Source: Variovorax sp. YR216 (GTDB taxonomy: Bacteria; Pseudomonadota; Gammaproteobacteria; Burkholderiales; Burkholderiaceae_C). From it: a stretch of 64,000 nucleotides of DNA. Below are positions 59,052 through 63,331 of this stretch, piece after piece (positions within the stretch are counted from its first letter, which is position 1; every line of letters starts with the position of its first letter). The stretch spans positions 496,001 through 560,000 of the forward strand of contig NZ_FNRO01000002.1 in the NCBI RefSeq assembly GCF_900107745.1, given 5' to 3'. The notes beneath the pieces were generated by a model. It saw only the letters and a list, made by a program, of their open reading frames with translations, was not told the DNA's origin and searched no databases. The position numbers were made by a program, and so were the translations under genes.

Positions 59052-60170
59052 TCAGCTTCCCCAGACTTCCTGCGCGACTTCGACGACGAGGCGCAGCTTG
59101 GCGCGTTGCGCCTCGACCGCAATGTTGTTGCCGTGAACCGTGCTGGAGAAGCCGCACTGCGGCGACAGCGCGAGCTGGTCGAGCGAGACGTACTTGGCGG
59201 CCGCCTCGATGCGTGCCTTGAGCTCGTCCTTGTCTTCCATCTCGCCGAACTTGGTGGTCACCAGGCCGAGCACGACCGTCTTGCCCTTCGGCAGGAAGCG
59301 CAGCGGACGGAAGTCGCCCGAGCGCGCGTCGTCGTATTCGAGGAAGTAGGCGTCGAGGTCCATCTCCTTGAGCAGCGCCTCGGCCACCGGCTCGTAGTTG
59401 CCGGCCGCGGCGTGCGTGCTCTTGAAGTTGCCGCGGCACAGGTGCATCGCGAGCGTCATGCCGGCGGGCTTCTGCGCGACCACCTTGTTGATGAAGTTCG
59501 CGTAGCGGTGCGGCAGCTCGTTGGGGTCGTCGCCGCGCTGGCGGGCGGCTTCGCGCATCCTCTCGTCGCAGAGGTAGGCGAGGTTGGTGTCGTCCATCTG
59601 CACGTAGGTGCAGCCGGCGGCGGCGAGCGAACGCAATTCGTCGCCGTAGGCCTTCGCGACGTCGTCGTAGAAGGTGGGGTCGAGTTCGGGGTAGGCCTCG
59701 CGGCTGATGCCGGCGCGGCCGCCGCGGAAGTGCAGCATGGTGGGCGAGGGGATCGTCACCTTCGGCGTGTTGCCGGCCGACACCTGGCTCTTGAGGTATT
59801 CGAAGTCGGCCAGCTGGATGTTCTTGGCGTGGCGCACCTTGTCGATGACGCGCATCACCGGCGGGGCCAGTTCCTCGGTGCCGTCGGGCTTGCGGATGGT
59901 GACCGGGATGTCGGTCTTCACGCCACCGAGCTGCTCGAGGAAGTCGATGTGGAAGTAGGTGCGGCGGAATTCGCCGTCGGTGATGCTCTTGAGGCCGATG
60001 TCTTCCTGGAACTTGACGATCTCGGTGATCGCCTTGTCTTCGACCTTGCGAAGCTGTTCGGGCGTGATCTCGCCCTTGGCTTTCTGCTCGCGGGCTTCGA
60101 GCAGGTATTGGGGACGCAGGAAGCTGCCGACGTGGTCGTAGCGTGCGGGCAGGCGGGCGTGTTCTGACAT
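59052..60170 (-). CDS. Short cobalamin-independent methionine-synthase-like (MetE C-terminal type) protein
   Basis: A 372-residue protein that corresponds to the catalytic half of MetE only; the N-terminal half of the full enzyme (about 750 residues) is absent. The zinc-binding residues are all present: His243 and Cys245 in AMHLCRGN, Glu278 in FLEYDD and Cys339 in SPQCGF. Members of this group often act on methylated compounds other than methyltetrahydrofolate, so a methyltransferase or lyase-like reaction on an unknown methyl donor is likely. The start is ATG 60170. It is divergent from a GntR regulator with four GGATAC sites in between. Confidence 0.85.
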   Translation of the reverse strand: MSEHARLPARYDHVGSFLRPQYLLEAREQKAKGEITPEQLRKVEDKAITEIVKFQEDIGLKSITDGEFRRTYFHIDFLEQLGGVKTDIPVTIRKPDGTEELAPPVMRVIDKVRHAKNIQLADFEYLKSQVSAGNTPKVTIPSPTMLHFRGGRAGISREAYPELDPTFYDDVAKAYGDELRSLAAAGCTYVQMDDTNLAYLCDERMREAARQRGDDPNELPHRYANFINKVVAQKPAGMTLAMHLCRGNFKSTHAAAGNYEPVAEALLKEMDLDAYFLEYDDARSGDFRPLRFLPKGKTVVLGLVTTKFGEMEDKDELKARIEAAAKYVSLDQLALSPQCGFSSTVHGNNIAVEAQRAKLRLVVEVAQEVWGS

Positions 60171-60208
60171 GGTTGGCTCCGTCGAAATCTGGAAAAGAAC
60201 GGTCGATC

Positions 60209-60316
60209 GTATCCGCACAGCGGCATGCGCTTACGGATACATCGACACTGGTGTTTACCCCTATTCGGGTGCAAAAAAAGACGATTCTCGGTGATCTGTG
60301 GATACATTCCGTATCC
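60209..60316. promoter_or_regulatory. Cluster of four GGATAC/GTATCC half-sites, candidate GntR operators
   Basis: GTATCC at 60209-60214, GGATAC at 60235-60240, GGATAC at 60300-60305 and GTATCC at 60311-60316, all in the divergent region of the MetE-like and GntR genes. The last two form a perfect palindrome GGATAC-ATTCC-GTATCC directly before the GntR GTG start; the first two are an everted pair near the MetE-like start. FCD/GntR regulators bind such dyads, so the regulator probably represses both promoters. Confidence 0.7.
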
Positions 60317-60317
60317 C

Positions 60318-61082
60318 GTGAATCCCCCCAGTCCTTCCGTTTTGTCCCACGCCGAAGCCGGCGGCTCGCAGGTCGTCAAGGCCCAGCTGCGGCTGCGCGA
60401 GATGGTGCTCGCCGGCGAATTGCCGGGCGGCGCGCGCATCGCCGAAGTGGCGATCTCGGAGTTGCTGGGCGTGTCCCGCACGCCGGTGCGCAGTGCGCTG
60501 ATGCGCCTCGAACAGGAAGGCCTGCTCGAGGCGCTGCCGAGCGGCGGCTATGCGGTGCGGACCTTTTCCGAGCGTGACGTGGGCGACGCCATCGAGCTGC
60601 GCGGCACGCTCGAAGGCCTTTCGGCCCGGCTCGCCGCCGAGCGCGGCGCGCCGCAGATGGTGCTGCGCGAGGCGCGCGCCTGTCTCAAGCGCATCGACGA
60701 ATTGATGCGCGAGCCGGCGCTCGATGACGCCGCCTTCTCGCGCTATGTCGCCTACAACGAGGAATTCCATCGCCTGCTCGCCGAGATGTCCGGTAGCCCG
60801 CTGATCGCCATGCAGACCGAGCGCGTGACCAACCTGCCTTTCGCTTCACCCTCGGGTTTCGTGGTGGTGGAGGCGAATTCGCCGGGCGCGCGCGACAGGT
60901 TGCTGGTCGCGCAGGACCAGCACTGGCAGGTGCTCGATGCCATCGAGAACCGCGAAGGCACGCGCGCCGAGGCGCTCATGCGCGAGCACAGCCGCATCGC
61001 CCAGCGCAATCTGCGTGAGGCCTTGCACGGCGCGCAGAGTGATGCCTTGCCGGCCGTGAAGCTCATCCGTCGCCGCGATTAA
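60318..61082 (+). CDS. GntR-family regulator, FCD subfamily
   Basis: A 254-residue regulator starting at GTG 60318 (VNPPSPSVLSHAEAGGSQVV). The winged helix-turn-helix covers about residues 18-80 (LRLREMVLAGELPGGARIAE, VSRTPVRSALMRLEQEGLL), followed by an FCD ligand domain with metal-binding histidines (EEFHRLLAEM, AQDQHWQVLDAI, MREHSRI). These regulators usually sense carboxylates or small catabolites and repress neighbouring genes. An upstream in-frame start (60225) would overlap the operator region and is less likely. Confidence 0.85.
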   Translation: MNPPSPSVLSHAEAGGSQVVKAQLRLREMVLAGELPGGARIAEVAISELLGVSRTPVRSALMRLEQEGLLEALPSGGYAVRTFSERDVGDAIELRGTLEGLSARLAAERGAPQMVLREARACLKRIDELMREPALDDAAFSRYVAYNEEFHRLLAEMSGSPLIAMQTERVTNLPFASPSGFVVVEANSPGARDRLLVAQDQHWQVLDAIENREGTRAEALMREHSRIAQRNLREALHGAQSDALPAVKLIRRRD

Positions 61083-61263
61083 GAGCTGCATAAGAATGAA
61101 CCAAAGCTTTGCGCGATGATCGCGCGCCGTATCCCTTGATCGCGCAGAAGTTCTTTTCCCACGGGGCGAGCTAGGTGTTTGCCGACGCCCTCGTGAGATT
61201 GCATTTCGTCACAATAGCCCCCGATTTTTCCCGTTCCAGCATTACCGCAGAAGGAGAGCTTTC

Positions 61264-62433
61264 ATGCTTCGTCGTCAATTCGTCCAGGCCGCCAGCCTGA
61301 CCGCCGTCGCGCTGGCCATGCCACTGGCCCATGCCGCGGACACTTTCAAGATCGGCCTGATCCTGCCCATGACCGGGCAGCAGGCTTCCACCGGTCGCCA
61401 GATCGAAGCTGCGGCGCGCCTCTACATGGCGCAGAACGGTGACACCGTCGCGGGCAAGAAGGTGGAACTGATCGTCAAGGACGACACCGGCCTGCCCGAC
61501 GTCGCCAAGCGCATTGCGCAAGAGCTCGTGGTGAACGAGAAGGTCAACGTGCTCGCCGGCTTCGGCCTGACGCCGATCGCGCTGGCGGTCGCGCCGATCG
61601 CCACGCAGTCGAAGACGCCGGCGATCACCATGGCAGCGGCGACCTCGGCCATCACCGAAGCCTCGCCCTACATGCTGCGTTCGAGCTTCACGCTGCCGCA
61701 GGTGTCGGTCGCGATGGGCGACTGGGCGCCGAAGAACGGCATCAAGTCGGTGGTGACGCTGGTGTCCGACTACGGTCCCGGCAACGATGCCGAGAAGTTC
61801 TTCGCCGAGCGCTTCCAGCTCAACGGCGGCAAGGTGCTCGACAAGCTGCGCGTGCCGCTGCGCAACCCCGATTTCGCGCCGTTCCTGCAGAAGGTGCGTG
61901 ACGCCAAGCCCGATGCCCTGTTCGTCTTCGTGCCCTCTGGCGCGGGTGCGGCGGTGATGAAGCAGTTCCTCGAGCGCGGCATGGACAAGGCGGGCATCAA
62001 GCTCATCGGCACCGGCGACCTGACGGACGACGATCAGCTCAACGACATGGGCGACGGCGCGCTCGGCGTGGTCACGACGCACCACTACTCGGCCGCGCAT
62101 CCTTCCGCGATGAACAAGAAGTTCGTCGAGGCCTTCGAGAAGGCCAACAAGAACATGCGTCCGAACTTCATGGCCGTCGGCGGCTACGACGGCATGCGCA
62201 TGATCTACGAGGCGCTCAAGACCACGAAGGGCCAGGGCGGCGGCGACGCGCTGCTGGCCGCGCTCAAGGGCCAGGTCTTCGAAAGCCCGCGCGGCCAGGT
62301 GCTGATCGACGCGCAGACGCGCGACATCACGCAGGACGTGTACCTGCGCAAGGTCGAGAAGAAGGACGGTCAGCTCTACAACGTCGAGTTCGACGTGATC
62401 AAGAGCGTCAAAGACCCAGGCAAGGCCAAGTAA
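61264..62433 (+). CDS. ABC transporter substrate-binding protein (LivK-like)
   Basis: A 389-residue periplasmic receptor. The signal peptide (MLRRQFVQAASLTAVALAMP) has a twin arginine and is cleaved near AHAAD; the mature start is TFKIGLILPMTGQQASTGRQ. AAGGAGAGC precedes the ATG. It is the first gene of the second Liv-type importer, followed by LivH- and LivM-like permeases. Promoter should lie in 61083-61263. The nearby MetE-like and GntR genes hint that the transported compound is their substrate, but this is inference. Confidence 0.92.
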   Translation: MLRRQFVQAASLTAVALAMPLAHAADTFKIGLILPMTGQQASTGRQIEAAARLYMAQNGDTVAGKKVELIVKDDTGLPDVAKRIAQELVVNEKVNVLAGFGLTPIALAVAPIATQSKTPAITMAAATSAITEASPYMLRSSFTLPQVSVAMGDWAPKNGIKSVVTLVSDYGPGNDAEKFFAERFQLNGGKVLDKLRVPLRNPDFAPFLQKVRDAKPDALFVFVPSGAGAAVMKQFLERGMDKAGIKLIGTGDLTDDDQLNDMGDGALGVVTTHHYSAAHPSAMNKKFVEAFEKANKNMRPNFMAVGGYDGMRMIYEALKTTKGQGGGDALLAALKGQVFESPRGQVLIDAQTRDITQDVYLRKVEKKDGQLYNVEFDVIKSVKDPGKAK

Positions 62434-62458: not shown

Positions 62459-63331
62459 ATGTTGACCATCCTTTTTGACGGCATTGCCTACGGCATGCTG
62501 CTGTTCGTGCTCGCGGTCGGATTGGCCGTGACGCTCGGATTGATGAACTTCATCAATCTCGCGCATGGCGCCTTCGCCATGGCGGGCGGCTACATCACGG
62601 TCTTCGCCATGCAGAAGCTGGGCGTGCCGTTCCTCGTTTGCCTGCCGCTTGCATTCATCCTGGTGGGTGCAGTGGGCGCATTGCTCGAACGAACGCTCTA
62701 CCGCCCGATGTACGGCAAGACGCACCTCGACCAGGTGATGTTCTCGATCGGGCTCGCCTTCATGGCGGTGGCGGGCATCGACTTCTTCGTCGGTTCGTCG
62801 CAGCAGAACATCCATCTGCCCGACTGGCTGCGCGGCCGCACCGAGATCGGCGACGGCGCGCTGATGCTGGGCATGGGCCACTACCGGCTCTTCATCATCG
62901 CGGTGTGCGCGCTGCTGACGGTGGTGCTGCAGCTCATCCTTACGCGCACGCGCTTCGGCAGCCGGCTGCGCGCGGCGGTGGACGATCCGCGCGTGGCCGC
63001 GGGCATGGGCATCAACGTGAACGTGGTGTTCCTGATGACCTTCGCGGTCGGCTCGGGACTGGCTGGCCTGGGCGGTGCGCTGGGCGCCGAGATCCTCGGG
63101 CTCGATCCGACCTTCCCGCTCAAGTACATGATCTATTTCCTCATCGTGGTGTCGGTCGGCGGCACCACCTCGATCACCGGGCCATTGCTGGCGGCGCTGC
63201 TGCTCGGCGTCGCCGACGTGGCGGGCAAGTACTTCATCCCGAAGATGGGCGCCTTCACCGTCTACCTCCTGATGATCCTCATCCTGATGTGGCGGCCGCA
63301 GGGCCTGTTCACCCGGAAGGGAGGACGGTGA
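62459..63331 (+). CDS. Branched-chain amino acid-type ABC permease (LivH-like)
   Basis: A 290-residue permease beginning MLTILFDGIAYGMLLFVLAV. The family segment is MNFINLAHGAFAMAGGYITV near residue 29, and the cytoplasmic loop reads AAVDDPRVAAGMGINVNVVF. The stop overlaps the next start (TGATG). It resembles the LivH subunits of HAAT importers for non-canonical substrates. Confidence 0.9.
   Translation: MLTILFDGIAYGMLLFVLAVGLAVTLGLMNFINLAHGAFAMAGGYITVFAMQKLGVPFLVCLPLAFILVGAVGALLERTLYRPMYGKTHLDQVMFSIGLAFMAVAGIDFFVGSSQQNIHLPDWLRGRTEIGDGALMLGMGHYRLFIIAVCALLTVVLQLILTRTRFGSRLRAAVDDPRVAAGMGINVNVVFLMTFAVGSGLAGLGGALGAEILGLDPTFPLKYMIYFLIVVSVGGTTSITGPLLAALLLGVADVAGKYFIPKMGAFTVYLLMILILMWRPQGLFTRKGGR

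Follow-up and report, generated by a model that had tools for sequence, protein, structure and literature searches.

The locus considered here, in which a MetE-like gene and a gene for a GntR regulator are read away from each other, raises the question of what the regulator recognizes in the shared promoter region and which signal it answers. In a preliminary description, four copies of GGATAC or its complement were noticed in about 108 bases of this region and were taken as half-sites of a defined operator for the adjacent FCD regulator. Direct scanning of 60209-60316 finds the copies exactly there, at 60209 (-), 60235 (+), 60300 (+) and 60311 (-). In the window, i.e., the whole 64-kb stretch of DNA that was analysed, the following genes bear on the question.

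59052-60170, minus strand: MetE-like gene, cobalamin-independent methionine synthase catalytic-domain family (NF005085, 440.7 bits, cut-off 313; Pfam Meth_synt_2)
60318-61082, plus strand: predicted VanR-type FCD GntR repressor gene, with a GTG start where type I loci (described below) have the Rieske ATG in the alignment
61264-62433, plus strand: periplasmic substrate-binding protein of a branched-chain-type ABC transporter (Pfam Peripla_BP_6, 1.8e-67)
62459-63331, plus strand: permease of the branched-chain-type ABC transporter (Pfam BPD_transp_2, 1.3e-35)

The regulator carries GntR (PF00392) and FCD (PF07729) domains, both above the Pfam cut-off, and scores 81.5 bits vs a cut-off of 271.5 for the NCBIfam phosphonate regulator phnR_burk. 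Its closest solved relative is Atu1419 of Agrobacterium fabrum (6z74; phmmer 3e-58, next best 2e-17), a VanR-group FCD GntR repressor (PDB 6z74, 6za0, 6za3, 6za7, 6zab; PMC7797058), with which it shares 109 of 218 aligned residues (50%). Orthologs were gathered by scanning genome contigs; the best 80 of at least 432 relatives, together with the window, make up 81 loci, and the ortholog counts leave aside L090 and L091, which are paralogs from the same genome. Throughout these 81 loci (the best 80 plus the window), the DNA-contact residues R31, E34, S44, R45, T46 and R49, the zinc ligands N137, H141, H192 and H214, and the pocket residues R86, Y133 and N221 are identical. The zinc ligands are also present in L090 and L091, and because these 37-39% paralogs have the kept pocket residues as well, the latter are no proof of a folate ligand. 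On the other hand, the wing residue Gly66 is not kept (Ser in the window; N 71, S 6, G 2 and H 2 among the best 80 and the window), nor are the effector-loop residues Lys175 and Arg183, which are Glu and Asp in the window, where Ser169 of the same loop is retained. In Atu1419, K175 and R183 are reported as loop residues touching citrate, and the wing is seemingly less crucial than in FadR (PMC7797058). Taken as protein comparison, these data give good support to the prediction that the regulator is a VanR-group FCD GntR repressor of the Atu1419 type, i.e., a member of a known repressor class, in which the regulator of Variovorax, Ramlibacter and Polaromonas can now be placed. A protein search in plasmids returned 1647 records, none of which reached 60% identity. 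The open-access literature that was searched contained no account pairing TGTATACA with a GntR regulator, nor one of a Rieske/GntR/demethylase/methionine synthase grouping in Variovorax.

The gene neighbourhood of the regulator was typed by tblastn of the neighbour genes. Variovorax appears in 43, Polaromonas in 12 and Ramlibacter in 11 of the titles of the best 80 loci. In type I (49 of the best 80), the MetE-like gene is divergent from a Rieske oxygenase gene, which is followed by the regulator and a reductase, and a transporter match is found in 46 of the 49. In type II (19 of the best 80), a different Rieske oxygenase, 43-48% identical to that of type I, is divergent from the regulator, and a reductase (16/19) and a MetE-like gene (16/19) are found on the oxygenase side. 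Type III comprises seven loci among the best 80 and the window, namely the window, L009, L010, L020, L044, L051 and L062, with the order MetE-like gene, regulator, transporter, the oxygenase and reductase being without match at the locus. Five of the best 80 are without Rieske and MetE-like matches, including L023, which lies near a contig end and has a reductase, and one more, L087, was typed as other. The 43 Variovorax-titled loci among the best 80 divide into 37 of type I, five of type III and L023, and the operator site proximal to the regulator in the window precedes a Rieske demethylase-like gene in 37 of the 43. The L011 oxygenase matches VanA_C (PF19112, 154.5 bits) and Rieske (PF00355, 67 bits), for which the window locus gives no match; among solved proteins, dicamba O-demethylase is the closest to the L011 enzyme.

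Two of the four hexamers coincide with the most conserved parts of the intergenic region.

60233-60242, unstranded: predicted operator A, ACGGATACAT, 8/10 to ATGTATACAT, on the upstream side of the MetE-like gene; ranks second in conservation among the 8-bp blocks
60298-60307, unstranded: predicted operator B, GTGGATACAT, 8/10 to ATGTATACAT, directly before the start codon; most conserved block

For the footprint, the 56 type I and type III intergenic regions from the best 80 loci and the window were aligned and weighted to an effective number of 31.8; the 25 of 81 loci of types II, none and other stand outside this 56-row alignment. Among 139 eight-base windows with a median of 0.71 bits, the two highest-scoring blocks that do not overlap span 60299-60306 (mean 1.94 bits) and 60234-60241 (mean 1.52 bits), i.e., B and A. 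Within the same 56 regions (best 80 plus the window), the core at site B always reads G[TG]ATAC (GTATAC 51, GGATAC 5), and site B matches ATGTATACAT at 8-10 of 10 positions in 55 loci and at 7 of 10 in one. The core at site A is GTATAC in 25, GGATAC in 19, GAATAC in 8, GTGTAC in 2 and missing in 2 (L075, L088) of these best-80-plus-window loci, which amounts to a matching core in 54 of 56 and to the form G[TGA]ATAC in 52 of 56. Atu1419 binds the operator ATGTATACAT, in which G3 is contacted by Arg45 and A5 by Thr46; a change of G3/C8 abolishes binding, a degenerate 8/10 site is still bound, and position 4 receives phosphate contacts only, with no base-specific contact (PMC7797058). Both window sites retain G3, A5, T6 and C8, their common deviation being position 4 (T to G), with further deviations at position 2 of site A and position 1 of site B. 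The single weak column of the site A 8-bp block is 60236, which is this very position 4 (0.42 bits; all others at least 1.5), and evolution and crystal structure appear to agree position by position on the operator predicted here. The GGATAC words at 60235 and 60300 are most likely not half-sites; each would be a whole operator core in which a single base departs from GTATAC. Only these two make good operators (8/10 to ATGTATACAT), the other two hexamers reaching 5/10. By contrast, the idea of a defined operator for the adjacent FCD regulator gains good support from phylogenetic footprinting, in the form of a predicted operator pair between the divergent MetE-like and regulator genes.

Where site A has a core (54 loci), A and B are separated by 62-66 bp (sd 0.74 across all 56; best 80 plus the window), near six helical turns in types I and III, and the distance from the MetE start to site A ranges from 49 to 81 (sd 5.0) over the same 56 loci from the best 80 and the window. 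At least two TGTATACA-type sites are present in 18 of the 19 type II promoters among the best 80, L073 having one, and there the distances run from 63 to 107 bp, i.e., 6.0 to 10.2 helical turns, many near half-integral. The A-B geometry is fixed in the locus type of the window, and helical phasing is no general requirement. DNA looping as a rule was considered and is unsupported, because the type II spacing is often half-integral, in contrast to the tight spacing of types I and III.

Our main reading, to which we give a probability of about 0.78, is that the divergent promoter would be under the control of an Atu1419-like repressor with two complete operators, released by N5,N10-methylene-tetrahydrofolate. 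A dimer of a probable tetramer would bind each site, A being placed in the upstream portion of the promoter of the MetE-like gene and B over the promoter and beginning of the gene read rightward, which is Rieske O-demethylase-like in most relatives (best 80) and the regulator itself in the window; the regulator would thus be autoregulated here, because its own gene stands behind site B. The repressor would block both divergent promoters until one-carbon units from demethylation load folate, N5,N10-methylene-tetrahydrofolate forms and the repressor lets go, and it would probably sense in this way the one-carbon units from the breakdown of methylated plant aromatics. The preliminary description had called the ligand unknown. 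That no longer stands in so far as methylene-tetrahydrofolate, the effector proposed for Atu1419 with support from gel shift, DSC and ITC (PMC7797058), can be named as a prediction open to testing, and it still stands in so far as for the window protein we infer it. Like Atu1419, the window regulator has the same helix DNA-contact residues, zinc ligands and TGTATACA palindrome, with sites before divergent genes and an adjacent one-carbon/folate enzyme gene, and, in most of its relatives among the best 80, a demethylase-like gene next to the sites. By contrast, the demethylase is of the Rieske type in the relatives and tetrahydrofolate-dependent in Agrobacterium, the partner gene is MetE-like instead of MetF-like, and the sites are 65 bp apart instead of 190 or 109 bp (PMC7797058). 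Several points speak against the main reading: the window sites match at 8/10 only, both with G at position 4; the residues at Gly66, K175 and R183 are S, E and D; the retained pocket residues occur in L090 and L091 too; the type II spacing does not follow that of types I and III; TGKATACA lacks genome-wide enrichment; and a consensus promoter scan found no promoter.

The same operator could also serve a different ligand, namely the methoxylated aromatic acid itself, vanillate- or syringate-like, as in Pseudomonas VanR2, which we hold to be possible though clearly second to the folate signal. VanR2 of Pseudomonas sp. NGC7 responds to syringate and 3-O-methylgallate, and it resembles the present regulator as an autoregulated GntR repressor of a VanAB-type O-demethylase with several short inverted repeats (PMC12314914). 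However, compared by operator word, VanR2 binds GGGATCCC and takes aromatic-acid effectors, whereas the window word is that of Atu1419, and the excerpted description of VanR2/vanAB mentions no MetE-like gene (PMC12314914). Furthermore, no pathway intermediate released Atu1419 from DNA (PMC7797058), and a one-carbon signal agrees well with the presence of a MetE-like gene at the shared operator region.

An aromatic-acid role of the locus is suggested on the transporter side, where a further element was found.

61110-61146, plus strand: predicted three-box PobR/PcaU-like operator of the transporter operon, TGCGCGATNATCGCGC-N11-TGATCGCGCA, 0 mismatches

The upstream element of the transporter reads TGCGCGATGATCGCGC-N11-TGATCGCGCA, and the whole genome holds two other copies within three mismatches, at 1 and 3 mismatches. 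The copy at one mismatch lies between pobA (TIGR02360) and a PcaR/PcaU/PobR-family (IclR) regulator (TIGR02431, 299 vs cut-off 284.75), and within one mismatch only the window copy at 61110 and the pobA region occur genome-wide. For the 76 loci with a transporter match (5 of 81 were left out), among the best 80 and the window, 49 have the palindrome (at least 14/17) in the 260 bp before the transporter, and 40 have the third box (at least 8/10) as well; of the 27 without palindrome in this best-80-plus-window set, 25 are on the Polaromonas/Ramlibacter side and two (L018, L024) on the Variovorax side of the tree. Published PobR sites share the three-box plan, a palindrome around the CGATNATCG core plus a third direct box, the arms being different (TGCG..CGCA instead of TGTC..GACA) (PMC8222616). 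Judged by its sequence, the transporter would have its own PobR-like operator. Because this operator is common to the pobA region and follows the published PobR plan, it supports hydroxy/methoxybenzoate use and an aromatic-acid role of the locus, and it also counts in favour of the aromatic-acid ligand.

The history of the missing enzymes is unusual. Judging from its gene content, the demethylating enzyme is gone from the window locus and the predicted switch remains.

60318-60355, plus strand: approximate junction of the missing Rieske oxygenase gene, from short, weak matches
61083-61104, plus strand: approximate junction of the missing reductase gene, with L011 matches on both sides

Window positions 60294-60322 weakly match L016 2844-2872 at the Rieske start (E 6e-4), and 60353-60380 weakly match L016 4000-4027 in the regulator (E 0.08); the counterpart matches to L024 are weak as well (E 0.004 and 2e-4), and the Rieske-start and regulator matches are about 1.1 kb apart in type I loci. 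At the reductase junction, L011 4716-4746 matches before (E 3e-4) and L011 5785-5956 after (E 4e-30). The L020 regulator begins MKTPATA, fused in frame, and Rieske proteins begin MKTPTTA; the regulator starts of L051 and L062 have no likeness to the Rieske start. In L044, a seven-codon open frame, MRTPATA, is seen at the type I Rieske start position, overlapping the start region of the regulator. A regulator tree, built by a quick method with 38 of 77 inner branches open, makes type III five changes, all forced by starred branches, and we read these changes as losses rather than gains because of the leftover Rieske-like starts in type III loci. The best remaining oxygenase of this kind in the window genome, VanA-like and 45% identical to the type I enzyme, is located elsewhere, in L153 2965-6529 (G000 C12), a stretch that also holds a gene resembling a reductase by eye and a further GntR gene.

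One speculative extension, which we regard as unlikely, sees in the window locus a one-carbon switch that stands alone: once the Rieske oxygenase and reductase genes had been lost, repeatedly and independently, the repressor would have taken over the operator, promoter and start codon of the enzyme and would now sense folate/formaldehyde for the whole cell and control the MetE-like methyltransferase, a PobR-type regulator would run the transporter separately, and the position-4 G may insulate the sites from a paralog with a perfect ATGTATACAT. The locus also suggests that a regulatory module may persist after the loss of the enzyme for whose control it arose.

It is quite unlikely that the operators are a decaying relic, drifting from GTATAC to GGATAC after demethylase loss and no longer functional. 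Both window sites carry the G variant, the demethylase and reductase genes are missing, and four of the five loci with GGATAC at both sites (best 80 plus the window) are type III. But the window, L009 and L010 retain both cores and the accessory arm; GGATAC occurs with the demethylase gene present, L022 having it at both sites and another 14 type I loci of the best 80 at site A; and L044, L051 and L062, without demethylase gene, yet have GTATAC at B.

The half-site model would have the regulator read GGATAC-N5-GTATCC as a 17-bp palindrome, FadR-like, each subunit taking one hexamer, and would treat the distal pair in the same way; we judge it very unlikely. The perfect palindrome beside the regulator start, as the preliminary description put it, does exist: 60300-60316 reads GGATACATTCCGTATCC, two perfectly inverted 6-bp arms on either side of 5 bp, and its second arm is the following element.

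60311-60316, minus strand: accessory GTATCC, 11 bp from B and beside the start codon; 5/10 to ATGTATACAT

Its perfect symmetry in the window and the presence of GTAT[CT]C at +11 of B in 50 of the 56 type I/III loci (best 80 plus the window) speak for the model. However, this partner arm follows only 3 of 74 type II TGTATACA matches among the best 80, both orientations counted, despite the orthologous regulator; in the distal pair the hexamers stand 20 bp apart, and the outer one lacks conservation at its three final bases; and Atu1419 binds a 10-bp palindrome, which would clash with FadR-type spacing (PMC7797058). The 17-bp reading was rejected on the second arm missing in the divergent type II architecture. 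The 60311 element recurs only in loci whose site adjoins the start codon (best 80 plus the window), and may be part of a start signal for transcription or translation. One whole-genome search with the 17-bp form gave the exact window site and eight other places, all at three mismatches, and another gave the window site (both strands) and one place at one mismatch; TGKATACA is not enriched genome-wide (43 vs 48 for the reversed control). We therefore propose no additional members of the regulon.

Chance repetition of a hexamer is a practically negligible explanation, with any-hexamer shuffles in its favour and, against it, the coincidence of two copies with the top two non-overlapping conserved blocks among 139 windows in 56 regions (best 80 plus the window). 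The cluster is real and beyond chance, as had been supposed: none of 20,000 dinucleotide shuffles of the 147-bp intergenic region holds four or more GGATAC/GTATCC copies, although 19 of 4,000 shuffles reach four when any hexamer is permitted as the repeated word, so that the post-hoc choice of the hexamer lowers the significance and does not abolish it. The 64-kb window has 13 copies vs 8.0 expected, equalled in 4 of 100 shuffles. The genome of 7,371,494 bases (7.37 Mb) has 783 copies, from which random placement would give about 0.0002 clusters of at least four in 108 bp genome-wide, and four in 108 bp are thus far from random.

Two further elements of the intergenic region are conserved.

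60206-60214, minus strand: conserved ATCGTA, which reads TACGAT on the minus strand and resembles a -10 element; the GTATCC hexamer at 60209-60214 overlaps it
60251-60261, unstranded: GTGTTTACCCC (consensus GTRTTTACCCT), between A and B; block 60254-60261 with a mean of 1.30 bits

Columns 60206, 60207 and 60210 reach 2.0 bits, and the hexamer columns 60212-60214 stay at 0.2-0.5 bits, i.e., the 60209 hexamer (5/10 to ATGTATACAT) is unconserved in its last three bases. TACGAT, directed toward the MetE-like gene, is a plausible -10 box; a consensus promoter/terminator scan found no promoter or terminator. The strongly conserved GTRTTTACCCT, 16 bp downstream of site A, may be part of a promoter or the site of another regulator. 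A fifth hexamer, at 61129 upstream of the ABC transporter, lies inside the spacer of the three-box operator, matches ATGTATACAT at 6/10, and is common to L009 and L010 and absent from six other loci (eight compared); it was set aside on these grounds as a regulator site for the transporter and is probably incidental.

Elsewhere in the genome, a paralogous FCD regulator (L150 5296-5388; G000 C24:192295-192387) has a perfect ATGTATACAT and two near copies; its upstream region holds the perfect ATGTATACAT and ACGTATACAT, 63 bp apart, and its divergent gene is short-chain dehydrogenase-like (by eye), followed by an ABC transporter. Because of the perfect ATGTATACAT before this paralog, cross-talk with it is possible. 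Three TGTATACA palindromes are also seen amid further FCD-type regulator matches in L151 (G000 C36:215320-224361), and the distribution of the TGTATACA word suggests that several regulators may share it.
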